From positions 79,474 to 143,473 of the forward strand of contig CADBAY010000009.1 of assembly GCA_902792815.1 (NCBI GenBank): a DNA stretch of 64,000 nucleotides, written 5' to 3'. Positions 860 through 6,846 of this stretch are shown here, piece by piece. This DNA comes from an uncultured Bacteroidia bacterium. GTDB lineage: Bacteria; Bacteroidota; Bacteroidia; Bacteroidales; UBA932. A program made the position numbers and the translations under genes. Under the pieces are notes generated by a model. That model was not told the origin of the DNA. It was given only the letters and a program-made list of their open reading frames with translations, and ran no database searches. The stretch's first letter is position 1, and every line of letters begins with the position of its first letter.

Positions 860-2377
860 TTAAGGCTCCTGGGCGAGGCTGAGTATTATCTCGTCCAGGA
901 TTTGCGCCACTTTGTAGGTCGGCGCGGTGATGTTGTTGGTGATGATGGAGAAGAAGATGGTCTTGGAGTCGTTGCCGTCGGCGGGAAGTATGTACCCGCT
1001 GAAACTGCGTACTCCGTTCATCGAGCCGCTCTTCATCTTTATCCTTTCCTTGACCTCGACGGGCGCGTCGGGCATACGGTTCAGAAGGGTGCTTTTGCTG
1101 CCGGGGTAGGGAAGAGAGGCAATGTAGGCGTCTTTCTCGGGGCTCCAGAACATCTTGCGGAGGAAGCGCACGAAGAAATCGGGTGAGATATAGTCTTTCC
1201 TTGACAGCCCGCTGCCGTCAACCATCTGACAGGCGCCGTCGGCCTTGAGGCCCATTGAGGCCAGCAGTTCATATACTGCTTTCTCGGAGAGTTCGCGCCC
1301 GGTCTGGCCGTAGAGGCTCATCGGGAGTATGTTGAAAAGCGTTTCGGCGTAAAAATTATCGCTCTCGAAATTGGTGTCCCGCACAATCTGCCTGAGCGTA
1401 GGCGACCAGCCCTTGCCAAGCGCCGTAAGAGACTCTGGCGCAGCTGCTTTGCGGCCTATGTCGGAGAACAGCAGGTCGGTGCGTAGCAGCCCTTGTGGAG
1501 ATACGTCGGCGTAGGCGCCGTGCACTTTCATTCCTCCCGACAGCAGGTAGCGGTAGAAATAGAACGCGCAGGTGTACGGACCGTAGTAATTGGAAGCCTC
1601 GAGTTTGAAAGACTTGCGGTCGGAGGGGAAGTTGCCCTGAAACTCTCCCACTGGGGCGTACTCGGAGTTGATGTAGTAGATGGTGTTGGCGCTTTTGGCC
1701 TCTCCGGTGCGTGCCGAGTTTACATAGCTCATCCAGGGAGTCTCGGGATAAAGCGGCTCCACGAGCGGCGATTTGCCGGTGGCCGAAGGCTTTACGGAGA
1801 ATGCCTGGGCGTTTTCGAAGAAATTGAGCCCCGAAGGCCCTGCGCCGTAGTTGAAGCCCATGTCCTCGGCCTGCCAGGTCATACTTTGCAGGGGTCGCTT
1901 GAAGTAGCGTCCGTCGCCCACCACGTGGCCGGTTATTTCTTTTATCCCGGCTTTGTCAAGCAAGTCTTTCCATGCTCTGAATGTCTTGAGCAGGGAGTCG
2001 GCGCACGATGAGCGTGATCCCGTGGTGGGATCTCCTCCACCCACTATGTACAGGTCGCCGTGGAGTACGCCGTCTTTGACACTGCCGCTGTAGGCAAGAG
2101 TGGTGGAAAAGCGCCAGGCGGAACCTAACTGCTTAAGAGCCAGGCCCGTGGTGATGAGCTTTACATTCGAAGCCGGCACCATCTTGAGCCTGCGGTTGTA
2201 CTGGGCCAGGGTGTCGGAGCCCCGTACGGCAAGAATCCCGAATATACCGGAACGCAGAGGCTCTTTCCGGGAATAGTCCGAAACGAGCTTCTGCGTTTCT
2301 GTGTTGCGGGTAGCGCCCCCGGCCGGTACAAAGTACAGCAGGGACAGCGCCGCGAATATTAGGGCTATGCGCTTCAA
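860..2377 (-). CDS. dacB: D-alanyl-D-alanine carboxypeptidase/endopeptidase, PBP4 type (peptidase S13)
   Basis: A 505-aa exported low-molecular-mass penicillin-binding protein that trims or cleaves peptidoglycan cross-links in the periplasm. Residues 1-22 form a signal peptide (MKRIALIF... then a hydrophobic stretch). All three serine-acyl-transferase motifs are present: SxxK as S70-N-V-K73, SxN as S339-D-N341 and KSG at 449-451. The long insert between the first two motifs is characteristic of S13 enzymes, and the length matches the family. The ATG overlaps the TGA of the upstream 91-aa gene by four bases (ATGA), so the two are translationally coupled and share the promoter in the leader repeat at 2621-2683. 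Family assignment is secure; whether it acts mainly as carboxypeptidase or endopeptidase cannot be told from sequence. Confidence 0.95.
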   Translation of the reverse strand: MKRIALIFAALSLLYFVPAGGATRNTETQKLVSDYSRKEPLRSGIFGILAVRGSDTLAQYNRRLKMVPASNVKLITTGLALKQLGSAWRFSTTLAYSGSVKDGVLHGDLYIVGGGDPTTGSRSSCADSLLKTFRAWKDLLDKAGIKEITGHVVGDGRYFKRPLQSMTWQAEDMGFNYGAGPSGLNFFENAQAFSVKPSATGKSPLVEPLYPETPWMSYVNSARTGEAKSANTIYYINSEYAPVGEFQGNFPSDRKSFKLEASNYYGPYTCAFYFYRYLLSGGMKVHGAYADVSPQGLLRTDLLFSDIGRKAAAPESLTALGKGWSPTLRQIVRDTNFESDNFYAETLFNILPMSLYGQTGRELSEKAVYELLASMGLKADGACQMVDGSGLSRKDYISPDFFVRFLRKMFWSPEKDAYIASLPYPGSKSTLLNRMPDAPVEVKERIKMKSGSMNGVRSFSGYILPADGNDSKTIFFSIITNNITAPTYKVAQILDEIILSLAQEP

Positions 2378-2649
2378 GCCTCTTTTCTGACGGCCGCGCT
2401 CAGCTTCTCGTAGAGTGCGTCGGTGCGCTCGAGCACCTCTTTGCGGAGGGCGTTGTAGTACACCTTGGCGGGGCCTTCTACCTTGGCCACTTTGTCGCGG
2501 AGTTCATTATACAGATCGATAGCTTCTTCCATAAGGCCGGAAGCCTCGTCTTCAGATACTTTGGTGTTTACTGCAGCCACGATGGAGCAATCCTCGATGA
2601 AAGCGCTCAGTACGTAGTCGATGTCTTTTTTGATGTCTCTAAGATTCAT
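2374..2649 (-). CDS. Small conserved protein, start MNLRDIKKDI, function unknown
   Basis: A 91-aa acidic, mainly helical protein with no signal peptide or membrane segment; residues 30-90 look able to form long amphipathic helices. It starts MNLRDIKKDIDYVL and has no domain I can name, though from memory small proteins with this opening are widespread in Bacteroidales. It overlaps dacB by 4 bp and is first in that operon. Its promoter (TATCTTTG, 2672-2679), leader and first ~9 codons are repeated at 3889-3952 and 4998-5045, each time just after the stop codon of another minus-strand gene. This complete copy appears to be the parent of the truncated ones. Confidence 0.8.
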   Translation of the reverse strand: MNLRDIKKDIDYVLSAFIEDCSIVAAVNTKVSEDEASGLMEEAIDLYNELRDKVAKVEGPAKVYYNALRKEVLERTDALYEKLSAAVRKEA

Positions 2650-2683
2650 ATCTTTCTGAATTAATTCGGTGCAAAGATAGTGA
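2621..2683 (-). repeat. Leader repeat, copy 1 (promoter + leader + start of the 91-aa gene)
   Basis: About 63 bp running on the minus strand from a TCACTATCTTTGC promoter core through GAATTAATTCAGAAAGAT to ATGAATCTTAGAGACATC and a further few codons. It matches copy 2 almost base for base and copy 3 over about 45 bp. Here it drives the intact 91-aa gene and dacB. It begins 22 bp after the stop codon of the gene fragment at 2706-2984. Confidence 0.85.
2672..2679 (-). promoter_or_regulatory. Bacteroidota -7 element TATCTTTG for the 91-aa gene and dacB
   Basis: A perfect TAnnTTTG match 22 bases before the ATG, inside leader repeat copy 1. No clear -33 TTTG was found at the expected distance. 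Confidence 0.6.
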
Positions 2684-2705
2684 ATTTATTTGAATTATGC
2701 ACTTG

Positions 2706-2984
2706 CTAAATACCTCCGTCCAATTCCCAGGATTGCCACTGATTGTCGTTGCGGAAGGCGAGTTTCATCTTCTTTATTTCTCCCGTAGCGAGTTGCACTT
2801 GACATGGGACGAAGATGCCACCGTAGGTGCCGGACTTAAAGGCATTCCCCTGGCTTATCAGTTTACATCCTTTGAAGCCACCGGCTTCGATGCGCTTGAG
2901 GGGATAGGCGCGGAAGATAACCTTGAGTCTTGTCTTTTTGCATTTCGTATGAATGGTTTTAAGGATGCATCCGATAACAAGACG
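2706..2984 (-). pseudogene. Truncated gene fragment, unknown family (no start codon)
   Basis: On the minus strand, a 92-codon open stretch between stops at 2985-2987 and 2706-2708 reads like real protein. Segments such as KLISQGNAFKSGTYGGIFV and LAFRNDNQWQSWELDGGI have balanced composition, Trp residues and beta-strand rhythm. There is no ATG, GTG or TTG in frame before the conserved-looking part, so the 5' end is missing or frameshifted. The opposite-strand frame over the same interval (from 2697) is low-complexity and looks like the shadow. The BRO-N gene lies directly upstream on the other strand, so its insertion may have cut this gene. The family is not recognised. Confidence 0.4.
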
Positions 2985-3066
2985 CTAAGTAGCGGAAAAA
3001 GATTTACTTTTCCTATTATTCTGCCTAATTCAACAAAATAAAGTGGTTGGAAAGCATAAAAACAGA

Positions 3067-3098
3067 CTTGCACTCGCAGAACAAATGGATTATATTTG
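3067..3098 (+). promoter_or_regulatory. Promoter of the BRO-N gene (CTTG-N20-TATATTTG)
   Basis: A -7 element TATATTTG lies at 3091-3098, with CTTG at 3067-3070 placed 20 bases upstream, which is the spacing of the Bacteroidota -33 element. The ATG used here (3115) lies 16 bases after the -7 box. Confidence 0.6.
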
Positions 3099-3114
3099 TA
3101 AAAATGTTGATGCT

Positions 3115-3789
3115 ATGTCTGATATTGAAATAATACAATTGTTTGAGAGCAAGAAAGTCCGGACAGTGTGGGATGAAGAGAAACAGGAGTGGTTCTTTTC
3201 CATTGTAGATGTTTGTGGGGTATTGACCGATCAACCCACACATGAAAGAGCCAGGAACTACTGGAAAGTGCTAAAAAACCGACTTAAGAAGGAAGGAAGC
3301 GAAGTGGTTACAAATTGTAACCGGTTGAAACTGGTTGCCGAAGATGGGAAATCCCGAGAAACGGATGTTGCCGATATGGCAACTATGTTCCGCGTCATTG
3401 AGTCAATACCCTCAAAGAAGGCCGAGCCTATCAAAGTTTGGATAGCAAAAATCGCTGCGGAACGTGTAAACCAAGCCATAGATCCGGAGCGCAGCATAGA
3501 TCAGGCGGTGGCGGATTATCGCCGGCTGGGATATTCTGAGGCGTGGATCAATCAACGAATCAAGACGATAGAGATCCGTAAAGGTCTTACGGATGAATGG
3601 AAGCGTGGCGGGGTTACCAAGGAAGTGGATTTCGCTTTCCTGACAGATCTTATGTCCAAGACTTGGAGTGGCCTGACCACCAAAGAGTACAAGAAATACA
3701 AGGGCCTCACCAAGGAGAACTTAAGGGATAACATGACCAATATGGAACTGCTGCTGAACGCCCTGGCGGAAGAAACAGCCACTGATTGA
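3115..3789 (+). CDS. BRO-N domain protein (phage antirepressor/DinD-like)
   Basis: A 224-aa protein beginning MSDIEIIQLFESKKVRT. Residues ~5-105 match the BRO-N fold found in phage antirepressors and DNA-damage-inducible DinD-type proteins: the family's opening strand pattern with EWFFSIVDVCGVLT, a helix, then ATMFRVIESIPSKKAEPIKV and WIAKIAAERVNQAIDPERS. The C-terminal ~90 residues are the helical tail usual in chromosomal BRO-N proteins of Bacteroidota. I chose the ATG at 3115 because a promoter lies just upstream; the frame is open back to 3043 with a GTG. The gene is oriented against its neighbours, has its own promoter and terminator and is less GC-rich than nearby housekeeping genes, which suggests acquisition. 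DNA binding is inferred from the family. Confidence 0.8.
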   Translation: MSDIEIIQLFESKKVRTVWDEEKQEWFFSIVDVCGVLTDQPTHERARNYWKVLKNRLKKEGSEVVTNCNRLKLVAEDGKSRETDVADMATMFRVIESIPSKKAEPIKVWIAKIAAERVNQAIDPERSIDQAVADYRRLGYSEAWINQRIKTIEIRKGLTDEWKRGGVTKEVDFAFLTDLMSKTWSGLTTKEYKKYKGLTKENLRDNMTNMELLLNALAEETATD

Positions 3790-3826
3790 CCACCAGGAAT
3801 GCCCAAAACCGGACGAACAGTAAAAC

Positions 3827-3853
3827 AACAGGCCGCGGAATCGCGGCCTGTTT
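3827..3853 (+). terminator. Intrinsic terminator after the BRO-N gene
   Basis: A perfect 11-bp stem (AACAGGCCGCG / CGCGGCCTGTT) with a GAAT loop, 37 bp after the BRO-N stop. A short T-rich run follows on the plus strand, and an A-rich stretch precedes it, so it may also work for minus-strand transcripts from leader copy 2. Confidence 0.75.
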
Positions 3854-3875
3854 CGTTATAATCTGACATCAATCA

Positions 3876-3917
3876 TTACAATTCTTTAATGTCTTTCTTG
3901 ATGTCTCTAAGATTCAT
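3876..3917 (-). CDS. 13-codon leader ORF (truncated MNLRDIKKDI start)
   Basis: ATG at 3917-3915 reads MNLRDIKKDIKEL and stops with TAA at 3878-3876. The first ten residues are identical to the 91-aa protein; it is a truncated duplicate within leader repeat copy 2. No gene follows it directly on the minus strand before the terminator hairpin. Whether it is translated is unknown. Confidence 0.4.
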   Translation of the reverse strand: MNLRDIKKDIKEL

Positions 3918-3952
3918 ATCTTTCTGAAGATAATTCAGCGCAAAGATAGTGA
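3889..3952 (-). repeat. Leader repeat, copy 2
   Basis: About 64 bp nearly identical to copy 1, with one single-base length difference in the leader. The -7 box TATCTTTG is at 3941-3948, and the repeat begins at the very next base after the TAA (3955-3953) of the thioredoxin gene. It carries the truncated MNLRDIKKDI start. Confidence 0.85.
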
Positions 3953-4983
3953 TTATTTTTGAAATATCGGTTTCAGGGCGGCATCGATTCCTTCGCCACG
4001 CATTCCGTCCTGAAGGACTTTTCCGTCAGGCCCGAAGAGGAAAAGATGGGGAATGCCGTTCACTCCATATTCCTCGGCAAGTGTGTCTCCCGGATCCAGC
4101 AACTGCGGATAATGGATGCCCAGTTGTTTCATTGCCTCTTTTGTTGCATCCTGTTTATCCTGTACCGGAATTCCCAGGACGATAAGGCCTTTGTCTTTAT
4201 AGTCGTTGTAGGCTTTGATGACAAACGGCGTCTCATCCCGGCAGGGACCGCACCAGGAAGCCCAGAAATCCACCAGGACATAGGCCCCTTGCCCGATAAA
4301 GTCAGACAGATTCCCATTGGATTCGATGAAATCATCCCCGGAAGGATTCAATTGGATAACTGTTTTTTTGGTGGCCGTAAGAGACTCGTAGCGGCCGGCA
4401 ATCTTAGCGTCGGCGTGGATGCACTCTCCACCCTGTTCGTATAAACTGATGAATTCTTCATCTGTTGCGTCAAATGCCAGTATGGACATGGCCTGCACCC
4501 CGATAGGATCCTGCAAATGGTTCAGGTAAACCTCCTTGCAGTGGTCGGCTATGGCTTTGTGCATTTCTTCAAAGAGGGCTTCGGAGCCTGCTTCGTCCCC
4601 GCTCTCCGCCAGCGCCGTTGCCTTGTCGTTATAGTCCAAGAAATGATTCATTATCCATTGCTGGAGTTCCTGGAGCTCTTCCGAAAGCGGACTGCCTCCT
4701 ACGGTAACCATCCCGTCTTTTATCGTGACATTGATTTCCTTGCTGTCTGGGATCAGGCTGACAGGGTCGCCCTTCGGCACGGTGATGACGGAGACTCCGT
4801 ACTGGGGATTCCTTTCGCAGGTCAGGGTGAATGCACCATCTTGAACAGCGGTGGCATCCAGACGTTTTCCCGCGTTATCTACCAGATATACACTGTCTGG
4901 TTGCGGACTGACAGAACCTGTAATGGTGCATGTCCGGTTGGAGGAACATGCAAGGATGCGGCCAGTAATGATTTGCGTAACAT
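3953..4983 (-). CDS. TlpA/ResA-like thioredoxin lipoprotein with N-terminal DUF4369-like domain; frameshift in the signal peptide
   Basis: The C-terminal ~110 residues are a thioredoxin fold with the redox motif WCGPC in VLVDFWASWCGPCRDE and the cis-Pro loop NGIPHLFLF. The middle and N-terminal parts (SNRTCTITGSV ... KGDPVSL) match the DUF4369 plus helical arrangement of Bacteroidota periplasmic thiol-disulfide oxidoreductases. The uninterrupted frame (275 aa from a GTG at 4780) lacks any export signal. An ATG at 4983-4981 gives MLRKSLLAASL, then one base is missing near 4951; adding one G (minus strand) continues as ACSSNRTCTITG, a good lipoprotein signal ending at Cys. The restored protein would be ~343 aa. 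Either the gene is mutated, the sequence has an error, or a -1 shift is used. It lies between leader repeat copies 3 and 2. Confidence 0.7.
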
Positions 4984-4991
4984 ATTAATTG

Positions 4992-5015
4992 TCAAATGAT
5001 GTCTCTAAGATTCAT
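4992..5015 (-). CDS. 7-codon leader ORF (MNLRDII)
   Basis: ATG at 5015-5013 in leader repeat copy 3 reads MNLRDII and stops with TGA at 4994-4992, eight bases before the ATG of the thioredoxin gene. It is a further truncated copy of the 91-aa gene start. It could act as a short upstream ORF for the thioredoxin gene, but that is only an inference. Confidence 0.35.
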   Translation of the reverse strand: MNLRDII

Positions 5016-5045
5016 GTCTTTCTGAATTAATTCGGGGCAAAGCAA
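4998..5045 (-). repeat. Leader repeat, copy 3
   Basis: About 45 bp shared with copies 1 and 2 from CTTTGC through GAATTAATTCAGAAAGA to ATGAATCTTAGAGACATC. The -7 region is degraded to TTGCTTTG. It begins three bases after the TGA of the 126-aa gene and ends just before the thioredoxin start. Confidence 0.8.
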
Positions 5046-5047
5046 GC

Positions 5048-5428
5048 TCAACGCTTGTGCCGGCGGTTGGCTTCGTCGAGGAAGGCGGCAAGTTCGGTAT
5101 TCTGCCGGATCTGTTCCCGGAAGCGTTCTCCGAAATGCTCTGCGAAGGTCTCCGTTGTCTGGCCAATGTAGAATCCTTCGGGCAGGTCGGTACGGACAGT
5201 CCCGCCTCCGTAGTTGCCGGCAGACCATCCCGGGGTAAAGACGTCCTCCAGCAGGTGGGGGCCCTTATCCGAGAAACACAGGGTCAATCTGGAATACTCG
5301 TGGTGCTCCTCGTCTCTATGATCAGCCAGGAAAATCTCGCGATACGTTATTTCTTGAAATGTTTGTGCGGAAGGTCTCTCCGAGGGACCTTTCAGCCGGG
5401 TCTTCTGTTTTTGGTGCTGCTTTTTCAT
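5048..5428 (-). CDS. Hypothetical 126-aa soluble protein
   Basis: Starts MKKQHQKQKTR with a very basic first 20 residues. It continues with a mixed alpha/beta stretch containing a His/Asp/Glu-rich segment (HRDEEHHEYSRLTL) and a Gly-rich turn (GWSAGNYGGGTVR), and ends in a charged helix. No signal peptide, no membrane segment and no recognised family. A TTG at 5440 would add MPAA; the ATG is preferred. It ends three bases before leader repeat copy 3 and lies 35 bp downstream of the LRR gene, so it may be last in that transcript. Coding character is reasonable but not proven. Confidence 0.55.
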   Translation of the reverse strand: MKKQHQKQKTRLKGPSERPSAQTFQEITYREIFLADHRDEEHHEYSRLTLCFSDKGPHLLEDVFTPGWSAGNYGGGTVRTDLPEGFYIGQTTETFAEHFGERFREQIRQNTELAAFLDEANRRHKR

Positions 5429-5463: not shown

Positions 5464-6846
5464 TTAAAACAACCAATCCAACCAGTCGTCTTCGGGATCT
5501 TCGGACTCCTTGAACGAGAAGAAGCTGGCTATCTTCTTGATTGCCGCCTTGTTTCTCTCACTCATCTCATCCGTGGCCGAATACAACTCGTCAAAAGGAC
5601 CATACGAAATCTTGAAAGAGTCGGGGGTAATGCGGAGCGAGACATTTTCATCTTCATCGTAGAGATGGACCCTGTTTGAAGAAGGAACATAATCGTAAGT
5701 AATGACGTCTACCGCCTGGGTGATACTGTTTGCTAAATACGCGCATACGGACGCGTTGGGAAATATGCACACTATAATGTCTTCGGCGTCTTTGCCATAC
5801 CGTTGCTTGTAATGTAGCCGGCAAATCTCTTTCAGCATCTTGCCGTCGTTGCCATTGGCCACTGTAACGTCCTCATAGAGGTGCGCCTTTATACCATCTA
5901 TCCAAGCGCTCTTTCCCACAGAAGAAAAATCCCCGGAAAGCGTGGTTCCGGCCACGGCTGTCTTGTACGACAGCCATATCTCTTTGAGACCGCTGCAGCC
6001 CTTGAAAGCCTCCCTCCCCACCTTTGTAACGCTCTTGGGAATAAATGCCCTCTTGATTCCGGGGCAATTTGCAAATGCGCTGTTTCCGATTTCTGTCAGC
6101 GCATTACTCCATTCCAGGTGAATAAAACTATCGCACCCATAAAAAGCATAGTCGCCAATCTTGGTGCATTCCTTAAACAATTCTTCACCTAAAGTCAAGA
6201 CTAAAAGAGAGTCACATTCATAAAAAGCCTTGTCGCAAATCTCCCTTACCTTCCTTTCGTTCGTGTTGAGATTGTTGAGCTTGCTGCATCCAAGAAACAT
6301 TGAATCGCGGACTGTGATACGATTGTCTTTCCCGGATTTCCACTTGAATTCCACATCTCTAAGGTCACGGCAATTAGCGAAAATGCCCGTCCCGAGAGAG
6401 GCAGCATCAGCAGGAATGGCGATTTTTTCCAGGCCGGATTTCGAAAATGCAAAGTTCCCTATTGAGTGCATGGAATCAGGCAGCTCAATCCGCTTCATGG
6501 ATTTGCAATTCTCAAAAGCATTGTTGCCTATGAATTCCAAACCCTCGCTCAATCCTACGTAGATAAGGTTTTCGCTATCTTTAAAGGCATTGTCATCAAT
6601 CCCCGTTACTTTGTAAGTCTTGCCCTTGACAGTGATAGTCTGCGGAATGTTGACGGCTTGGAGCTTGGGGTAGGAGCTCTTTTTGGGATACCCTTCCCCT
6701 TTGTACGTAACCATAACGACTCCAGTCTTGTAAGGGACTTTGCTATAGTAAAGATCCCCCACTTTGAAATCGTGTGCCAGCGCGCTTGCGGGCATTGCGA
6801 CAGCCGCCAGCAGCACCGCAACGACCAGGTAAACTACTTTTTTCAT
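5464..6846 (-). CDS. BspA-like leucine-rich repeat (LRR_5) surface protein
   Basis: A 460-aa exported protein with a signal peptide at residues 1-24 (MKKVVYLVVAVLLAAVAMPA). From ~70 to ~300 it consists of 22-24-residue LRR_5 repeats of the form IGNNAFENCKSMKRIELPDS, IGDYAFYGCDSF, IGNSAFANCPGIKRAFIPKS and VGREAFKGCSGLKEIWLS. Such repeats occur in BspA/TpLRR proteins of Bacteroidetes and often mediate binding to host or bacterial surfaces. The C-terminal ~150 residues are a separate non-repeat domain of unknown function. No T9SS-type C-terminal domain was recognised, so whether it is periplasmic or surface-exposed is unclear. It follows the 299-aa gene by 33 bp. Confidence 0.8.
   Translation of the reverse strand: MKKVVYLVVAVLLAAVAMPASALAHDFKVGDLYYSKVPYKTGVVMVTYKGEGYPKKSSYPKLQAVNIPQTITVKGKTYKVTGIDDNAFKDSENLIYVGLSEGLEFIGNNAFENCKSMKRIELPDSMHSIGNFAFSKSGLEKIAIPADAASLGTGIFANCRDLRDVEFKWKSGKDNRITVRDSMFLGCSKLNNLNTNERKVREICDKAFYECDSLLVLTLGEELFKECTKIGDYAFYGCDSFIHLEWSNALTEIGNSAFANCPGIKRAFIPKSVTKVGREAFKGCSGLKEIWLSYKTAVAGTTLSGDFSSVGKSAWIDGIKAHLYEDVTVANGNDGKMLKEICRLHYKQRYGKDAEDIIVCIFPNASVCAYLANSITQAVDVITYDYVPSSNRVHLYDEDENVSLRITPDSFKISYGPFDELYSATDEMSERNKAAIKKIASFFSFKESEDPEDDWLDWLF

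Follow-up and report, generated by a model that had tools for sequence, protein, structure and literature searches.

Repeated starts of a conserved 91-amino-acid gene in a Bacteroidales genus as the probable joints of gene-restoring cassette arrays, likely moved by a large serine recombinase

Introduction

Integrons, the textbook cassette stackers, build arrays of small cassettes beside a platform site, with toxin-antitoxin-like and unknown cargo that is shared between species in new orders; they are tyrosine-recombinase systems and are scarce in Bacteroidales. Prophages and integrative elements with serine integrases encode a large serine recombinase and carry an element site that forms a palindrome of about 50 bp around a central dinucleotide, and the classical enzymes need a complete attP and a complete attB. 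Elements of the staphylococcal cassette chromosome (SCC) insert at the 3′ end of orfX (rlmH). In the SCC composite islands described for two strains, several elements occupy one chromosomal site with integration-site repeats at the joints (six and eight copies), the enzymes are large serine recombinases, and an element without ccr sits in an island (PMC3900703). Islands associated with dusA integrate inside the 5′ end of a conserved gene, to which the island supplies 5′ sequence and which the original sequence rejoins on excision; they use a tyrosine recombinase and are typically 30–60 kb with an integrase of their own, and the main text of that report does not contain the word "tandem" and does not appear to describe arrays of small recombinase-less cassettes as such (PMC4482086). 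Here we analyze positions 2374–5428 of a 64,000-nucleotide stretch (the window) from an uncultured Bacteroidales bacterium of the UBA932 lineage (assembly GCA_902792815.1, contig CADBAY010000009.1), in which the promoter and start of a conserved gene of 91 amino acids (the 91-aa gene) occur in three copies in an array that reads on the minus strand.

We consider it probable, though far from certain, that these repeats are the joints of a site-specific cassette array in which each insert restores the gene that it enters, and that the cassettes are moved in trans by a 502-aa serine recombinase. We know of no system that combines small recombinase-less cassettes, a platform at the 5′ end of a gene with promoter delivery, and a serine recombinase, and no description of this one was found in the openly licensed literature, the sole literature searched.

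Results and Discussion

Three copies of one gene start bound two segments

The site consists of the promoter, the ATG and the first codons of the 91-aa gene, and its three direct copies bound two segments, so that the order along the minus strand is a 126-aa gene, site copy 3, a thioredoxin lipoprotein, copy 2, a Bro-N segment, copy 1 and the 91-aa gene. This repeated unit was first noticed in a reading of the letters without database searches (the sequence-only reading), and its coordinates and translations hold. A repeat finder places the direct copies at 2631–2676, 3899–3944 and 4997–5042, all on the minus strand, with ATGs at 2649, 3917 and 5015, and a 30-base core allowed up to 3 mismatches has exactly three matches in the window's own genome, all in the array, against none for the backward control. 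Only copy 1 leads into the complete gene (MNLRDIKKDIDYV..., 91 aa), as that reading had it; copy 2 ends as MNLRDIKKDIKEL and copy 3 as MNLRDII, each followed by a stop codon. Copy 3 is damaged, its promoter part being gone in comparison with relative G011 (genus genomes carry G numbers here, individual loci L numbers) and the bases after codon 6 having been lost, a loss common to the window and G062. The gene has homologues in 20 of 24 same-genus relatives versus 2 of 16 genomes from other families and is therefore conserved, as had been supposed, whereas the accompanying label "housekeeping" goes further than this result; the product has no Pfam or NCBIfam match.

Arrays recur across the genus and cassettes are shared between species

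The gene-start pattern matches 259 of 300 genus genomes, several of them with two to five copies. The right half of the truncated copies, which is the left arm of a cassette, was detected by pattern at 30 sites in 24 of 400 genus genomes (backward control 0), and reading revealed a truncated site in six more (G000, G069, G087, G104, G235 and G247). At least one truncated copy is present in 30 of the 400, with G020 and G114 among them degenerate, and this figure is a minimum: reading was limited to pattern-flagged genomes, the assemblies are drafts in which several contigs end at a site, and a decayed copy in G062 and an odd copy in G199 were left out of the count. Arrays with different cargo are found at the same place in many species. 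The complete recombinase-less cassettes (n = 29) measure 831–7,569 bp with a median of 2,580, and the longest array read, that of G331, has five sites and four cassettes.

A before/after pair is provided by G062, in which the thioredoxin segment lies directly before the 91-aa gene and exactly the 1,268-bp Bro-N segment is missing; this genome aligns with the window at 94% over the thioredoxin segment and at 87% over the gene and beyond. The position after the thioredoxin cassette has been found in three states, being taken by the gene in G062, by the Bro-N cassette in the window and by a serine-recombinase element in G311, which has the same 126-aa gene and thioredoxin segment as the window. 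In G011 the 126-aa gene is followed immediately by the 91-aa gene.

Several cassettes are nearly identical in different species, with edges at site copies. One of 5.4 kb, whose genes encode a histidine kinase and a putative lipoprotein, shows 98.6% identity between G141 and G331 and 98.7% over 5.2 kb between G331 and G053. Another, of 1,971 bp and encoding a BACON lipoprotein, shows 99.2% identity between G292 and G331, and the parts of it present in G141 and G235 show 97.4% and 95%, respectively. The 91-aa genes of these hosts, compared over 150 bp from codon 9, are 64% (G292/G331), 56% (G141/G331) and 85% (G331/G053) identical; the genes of the last pair are fairly similar and it therefore says less about transfer. 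Among the matches listed for each cassette, the thioredoxin cassette is present, whole or in part, in at least nine genomes including that of the window, and its right end also in G024.

The sequence-only reading had proposed that DNA integrates repeatedly at the start of a conserved gene and recreates target and promoter each time, a proposal that the arrays of different cargo, the before/after pair and the shared segments edged by sites support. The main alternative offered there was tandem duplication followed by divergence, which would be favoured if the core occurred nowhere else. The core lies next to unrelated genes in other genomes, and a single tandem duplication therefore fails that reading's own test. 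One local duplication of the gene's 5′ end in the window's lineage would account for the presence in one genome of three similar copies less than 2.4 kb apart, but unrelated cargo lies between the copies, the same cassettes are edged by sites elsewhere, and truncated sites recur at the frequency given above. The comparison with G062 and the cassettes common to other species rule it out, and we give it practically no weight.

Two observations concern the 91-aa gene in other assemblies. At L043 (G003:C90) the first ~12 codons of the gene are gone and the remainder continues in frame from an open reading frame (ORF) upstream, the open frame totalling about 600 aa, with two phage-type integrases about 8–10 kb upstream. 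Two different full-length 91-aa genes are present per assembly in G141 (L049 and L051) and G064 (L072 and L073), as paralogues or through mixed bins.

Left edges of the best-sampled cassettes lie at codon 7

Where one cassette is present in different species, the sequence upstream of its left edge differs and agreement starts from codon 7, as seen in the two best-sampled families (F1, five copies; F2, four). Codons 4–6 are nearly identical in every copy, so the break is only bracketed between codon 3 or 6 and codon 7. The sequences of G247 and G232 are 98% identical right of codon 8 versus 46% left of codon 7. In 21 pairs of near-identical 91-aa genes preceded by unrelated upstream DNA, pairs that are not independent of one another, the mismatch is 0.39–0.62 at positions −70 to −21, 0.14–0.15 in the next 20 bases (codons 1–6), 0.03–0.04 in the first 20 bases from codon 7 and 0.05–0.13 farther right. 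An alignment of 36 truncated copies shows conservation between the ATG and a point about 28 bases beyond codon 7, with variable sequence farther on; this profile omits window copy 3, L049, L056_7094, L059, L066, L068_6145, L070 and L077 as cut, damaged, diverged or full gene, and L093 (G020), L096 (G114) and site 2 of G087 are also outside it.

Several features of the edges weigh against a simple site-specific event at codon 7. In nine of the 36 copies, copy 2 of the window included, resemblance to the gene extends beyond codon 8 with GACAT or GATAT, up to about 10 bp farther than codon 7, and in families F3 and F4, each represented by two copies, agreement does not begin until about 10–15 bp to the right of codon 7. 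The crossover of the insertion in the window is only bracketed and may lie up to about 10 bp farther into the gene than codon 7. At the right edge, the promoter of the thioredoxin cassette is retained as far as TATCTTT in 10 genomes, but the 5′ untranslated region (UTR) and codons 1–6 that come next are of several types. In G024 its right end bears the codon-6 change of that genome's own gene lineage, and similar right-edge breaks occur in two more cassette families. The segments within one array are also more alike (mean similarity 0.78, 37 pairs) than those of different genomes (0.67, 1,040 pairs), a difference reached in none of 5,000 permutations, and such likeness is what gene conversion or duplication of host sequence would give. 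In view of the mosaic right ends and this within-array likeness, homologous recombination or gene conversion must have brought about some extra exchange inside the 45-bp segment.

These same features would be expected if ordinary homologous recombination through the 45–60 bp promoter/start repeat, after DNA uptake or conjugation, had built the arrays and the recombinase element described below were a separate visitor; the rarity of the serine recombinase and its absence from most array genomes would fit as well. Against this, left arms of ~28 bp are conserved amid largely unrelated cargo (36 copies, at least eight of them from two shared cassettes), though homology outside the gene is not needed for such recombination; the two sites of G310, which are adjacent, now have no more than 13 bp of perfect identity in the recombined segment, which is little for homologous recombination; and the agreement within F1 and F2 starts at codon 7, the centre of the G311 element palindrome. 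We regard homologous recombination as the sole builder of the arrays as unlikely, though it is the alternative to be taken most seriously.

At many truncated sites (window 3823–3960; L049–L068) a hairpin is possible between codons 4–7 and the left arm, pairing GACATCAA/TTGATGTC or GAGAC/GTCTC, and a terminator-like hairpin often comes next. If the truncated copies were conserved for a function in RNA, as a short leader or a small RNA with hairpin and terminator, the link with cargo would be secondary. The paired arms and terminators of many copies are in keeping with this, as is the fold of the copy 2 region (3823–3960), whose z of −5.35 is better than all 200 shuffles. The terminator hairpin makes up much of that fold, however, copies 1 and 3 (z of −0.17 and 0.70) fold no better than shuffles, and copies of the BACON cassette keep the left arm with no obvious terminator by eye, so that we hold an RNA function to be very improbable. 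A scan found four terminator-like hairpins versus 3.5 expected by chance, the one at copy 2 having the longest stem. Many joints have imperfect dyads of several pairing types. This diversity of dyads, together with the codon-7 palindrome of the G311 element, for which a serine recombinase is the better match, led us to set aside folded attC-like sites as the main explanation.

A large serine recombinase lies at the site in three relatives

The sequence-only reading saw no recombinase near the array and suggested a search in genomes with arrays. The window's genome indeed lacks the type described here at E 1e-30, and the search led to a large serine recombinase at the site in three relatives. 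The 502-aa protein matches PF00239 (E 2.9e-20) and PF07508 (E 8.5e-8), both domains being present in G087 as well, and the serine of its RVST motif, which we take to be the catalytic serine, is invariant in all three recombinases. Homologues with at least 53% identity are found in three of 400 genus genomes (G311, G400 and G087), in each of which the gene is 77–145 bp from the ATG of a site. Searches elsewhere gave no homologue at E 1e-40 in 384 order-level genomes (at least three of them genus members; no positive control), none in viral contigs, and only matches below 31% identity among those listed for plasmids and phages (10 of 12 plasmid and 10 of 55 phage records); the site patterns had no match in viral contigs. 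More distant large serine recombinases (34–39% identity) are present in five further genomes of the genus, at L112–L116 (G023, G021, G392, G314 and G232).

The complete element could be read only in G087, where it is 9.7 kb long, gene-proximal and on one contig. It comprises, in order, a site with a gene-like left half, the recombinase, a 198-aa tyrosine recombinase, proteins of 179, 997 and 120 aa, and a promoter, and it ends with a changed start of the 91-aa gene, MGVHSLRHIKK. A related changed start, MSGYHSLR, is found in G311, G004, G015 and G212. G004 retains the 120-aa gene of the element, and no other element parts were seen near the 91-aa gene in G015 and G212. In G311 and G004 the right end of the element precedes the 91-aa gene on a different contig from the other sites, and in G400 the 91-aa gene was not found.

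When the element ends of G311 are joined, 20 of 28 positions pair in a palindrome centred on codon 7, with 13 at the next-best offset; with 20-bp arms, only 5 of 20,000 shuffles attain the observed pairing. Right ends from G004, G212, G015 and G311 set against left ends from G311 and G400 give 18–22 paired positions at the codon-7 centre and 12–13 elsewhere. Codon 7 is thus reached by two routes, the left edges of cassettes and the centre of the palindrome, in elements of the G311 type, and weakly in G087.

Other observations count against assigning the cassettes to this enzyme. Besides its absence from the window's genome, the recombinase is rarer (3 of 400 genomes) than the cassettes (30 of 400), its gene has the same orientation in G311 and G400 and the opposite one in G087, and the draft assemblies showed no excised circle. 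Codon 7 is the best centre for the two ends of the G087 element as well when these are joined, yet only 15 of 28 positions pair there and 4,273 of 20,000 shuffles attain the 20-bp-arm value, no more than chance. Ordinary cassette joints lack the codon-7 palindrome (5–13 of 28 in 25 joints) and consist of a gene-like left half and one element-like half, so that the classical attP × attB reaction does not cover them. Finally, the 198-aa tyrosine recombinase accompanies the serine recombinase in all three elements (L119 in G087, L099 in G311, L092 in G400).

That last protein, which is XerC-like, or the host XerC/XerD, could be the enzyme instead. The PF00589 protein adjoins the serine recombinase in G311 and G087, with a homologue in G400, and tyrosine recombinases are present in 30 of 31 genomes. 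The 198-aa protein, however, has little besides the catalytic domain (match residues 45–184). Tyrosine recombinases need an identical overlap of 6–8 bp, and by eye the element site of G311 and the gene have no identical 6–8 bp run around codon 7; a central dinucleotide within a palindrome of about 50 bp is in keeping with a serine integrase. Another recombinase in this role seems improbable to us. In the genome of the window and 20 relatives, only G003 has PF00589 matches within about 10 kb of the gene on its contig, and the only such match on the window's contig (C9:28013-28450) is over 50 kb away. In the elements the 198-aa protein is followed by the 179-aa protein.

Proposed mechanism

In the mechanism that we propose, the target would be codon 7 of the 91-aa gene. 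Each cassette carries a left arm of the AAGAAAG plus GTCWTAAAGAATTGTAATC type after codon 7, often with a terminator-like hairpin, and a right end made up of a promoter, a 5′ UTR, an ATG and the first codons. Insertion would separate the gene from its own promoter and the right end of the cassette would restore it, probably with an effect on expression; since the site next to the gene would then be whole again, the next cassette could enter there and the array would grow gene-proximally. The old promoter retains a short stub, usually of 10–18 codons (6–47 seen), or may read cargo of the same direction. A rarer autonomous element with the 502-aa recombinase would integrate at the same codon. 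Its right end differs (GTGGTTACCATTCTTTAAGA type), so that it would give the gene a start of its own and fail to recreate the ordinary site, leaving that end closed to the same reaction. The recombinase, when present, would also move the small cassettes in trans, perhaps through circular intermediates, and we put such movement forward as the simplest proposal. We are more tentative about regarding the whole as a serine-recombinase counterpart of the integron, in which recombinase-less half-site cassettes are stacked and exchanged between species on a platform that is reset with each insert and closed by the autonomous element; this is a possibility that we hold at somewhat less than even confidence.

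Genes and cargo of the array

The features of the array are compiled in Table 1. The list of cargo given in the sequence-only reading was right about the thioredoxin lipoprotein and did not mention the plus-strand Bro-N gene of the middle segment, and what it called a gene fragment before copy 1 matches the right end of another cassette, with 96% identity over 175 bp to the DNA immediately preceding a truncated site in G148. The Bro-N protein matches the PADLOC model PDC-S13 (PDLC04920, E 8.3e-102), presumably, going by the model's name, a phage-defence candidate. A second stretch 64% similar to window 3361–3747, in the region of the Bro-N gene, is found at G000:C11:78274-78657, elsewhere in the genome of the window and with no core site. 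The thioredoxin gene of the window has a short deletion near its 5′ end relative to G062, as read from the sequences, and the cassette also aligns partly with G089, G177, G292, G087, G297 and G400. The array is adjoined at 5464–6846 by a gene for a BspA-type leucine-rich-repeat protein.

Table 1. Coordinates of the array and its cargo within the window.
Feature	Position	Strand	Remarks
91-aa conserved target gene	2374..2649	-	5′ end is the integration site
Site copy 1	2621..2683	-	Promoter, 5′ UTR, ATG, codons 1–9; joined to the intact 91-aa gene
Putative crossover dinucleotide AA (codon 7)	2630..2631	-	From breakpoint mapping and the centre of the G311 element palindrome
Bro-N cassette, 1268 bp	2632..3899	-	Limits taken as codon 7 of copy 2 and codon 6 of copy 1; absent in G062, whose two flanks align
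−7 box of copy 1, CTATCTTTG	2672-2680	-	By eye
Bro-N domain protein, convergent cargo gene	3043..3789	+	PF02498, E 1.4e-8
Intrinsic-terminator-like hairpin, 11-bp stem	3827..3852	-	Downstream of truncated copy 2
Site copy 2	3889..3952	-	Promoter, ATG, MNLRDIKKDIKEL, stop; 5′ part belongs to the thioredoxin cassette, 3′ part forms the left arm of the Bro-N cassette
Thioredoxin-lipoprotein cassette, 1098 bp	3900..4997	-	End-to-end alignment with G062 (93.8%) and G311 (90.4%)
Thioredoxin-fold cargo ORF (AhpC/TSA)	3953..4780	-	PF00578, E 1.7e-19
Site copy 3	4997..5045	-	Decayed, MNLRDII, stop; promoter and sequence beyond codon 6 missing
126-aa gene just upstream of the array	5048..5428	-	Precedes the 91-aa gene in G011 and the thioredoxin cassette in G311 as well

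By Pfam matches, cargo elsewhere in the genus includes RhuM, DUF4160/DUF2442, a helix-turn-helix (HTH) protein with an unmatched partner, a nucleotidyltransferase/HepT pair, a STAS-like DUF4325 protein with HATPase, and a Big_2/LRR/M64 protein. The nucleotidyltransferase/HepT pair, the HTH protein with its partner and DUF4160/DUF2442 are toxin-antitoxin-like; such cargo is located at L098 4202-4880, L063 5738-6665 and L064 5453-5955, with L098 and L064 oriented as the gene.

Comparison with described systems

In enzymology and array form the SCC composite islands appear to be nearest, sharing with these arrays, as far as their description goes, the stacking of elements at one site, the site repeats at the joints and a large serine recombinase. 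SCC elements are tens of kilobases long and located at orfX, whereas the inserts here are 0.8–7.6 kb, enter the 5′ end of an unrelated gene and supply a promoter and a start codon. The repeats at the joints are thus found at the 91-aa gene rather than at rlmH, and the recombinase, although it has Resolvase and Recombinase domains, scores only 46.3 bits against the NCBIfam model for CcrB (cut-off 900) and 34.3 bits against that for CcrA (cut-off 700).

The dusA-associated islands seem nearest in replacing the 5′ end of a gene. Here too the insert supplies that end, to judge from the unrelated promoters and starts before near-identical genes, and the replacement is also seen in the altered starts of G087, G311, G004, G015 and G212. 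The enzyme at the site is a serine recombinase in the present case, and the gene is a different one.

In cassette size and exchange integrons would be the nearest system. Small cassettes lie beside a platform, toxin-antitoxin-like cargo is among them, many joints have an imperfect dyad, though of several pairing types, and cassettes are shared between species in new orders, passing between hosts as units to judge from the copies that are 98.6% and 99.2% identical. Unlike in integrons, the joints carry a promoter aimed at the platform gene, the cargo is in both orientations and the candidate enzyme is a serine recombinase. No integron integrase was found at the array, given seven PF00589 matches in the window's genome and no integron-specific model run over the genomes; the 198-aa protein of the element reaches 43 of the 220 bits for NF040815, "tyrosine recombinase/integron integrase".

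With serine-integrase elements the system has in common a large serine recombinase, in the form of a Resolvase domain with a predicted catalytic serine and a Recombinase domain. It differs from the classical ones in that the cassettes have one element-type half only, which raises the mechanistic question of whether a serine integrase can use such a site.

The promoter-delivering end of the cassettes would explain why a conserved gene is not lost when it is used as a platform for insertion: each insert brings a new promoter and start codon, and the 91-aa gene would therefore survive the stacking of unrelated genes before it. The genes stacked in this way are toxin-antitoxin-like, candidate defence, surface-lipoprotein and signalling genes. 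The arrays may represent an independent solution with an integron-like outcome in a species-rich gut Bacteroidales lineage, and the serine recombinase is the best candidate for the builder of integron-like arrays in this large group of gut bacteria.

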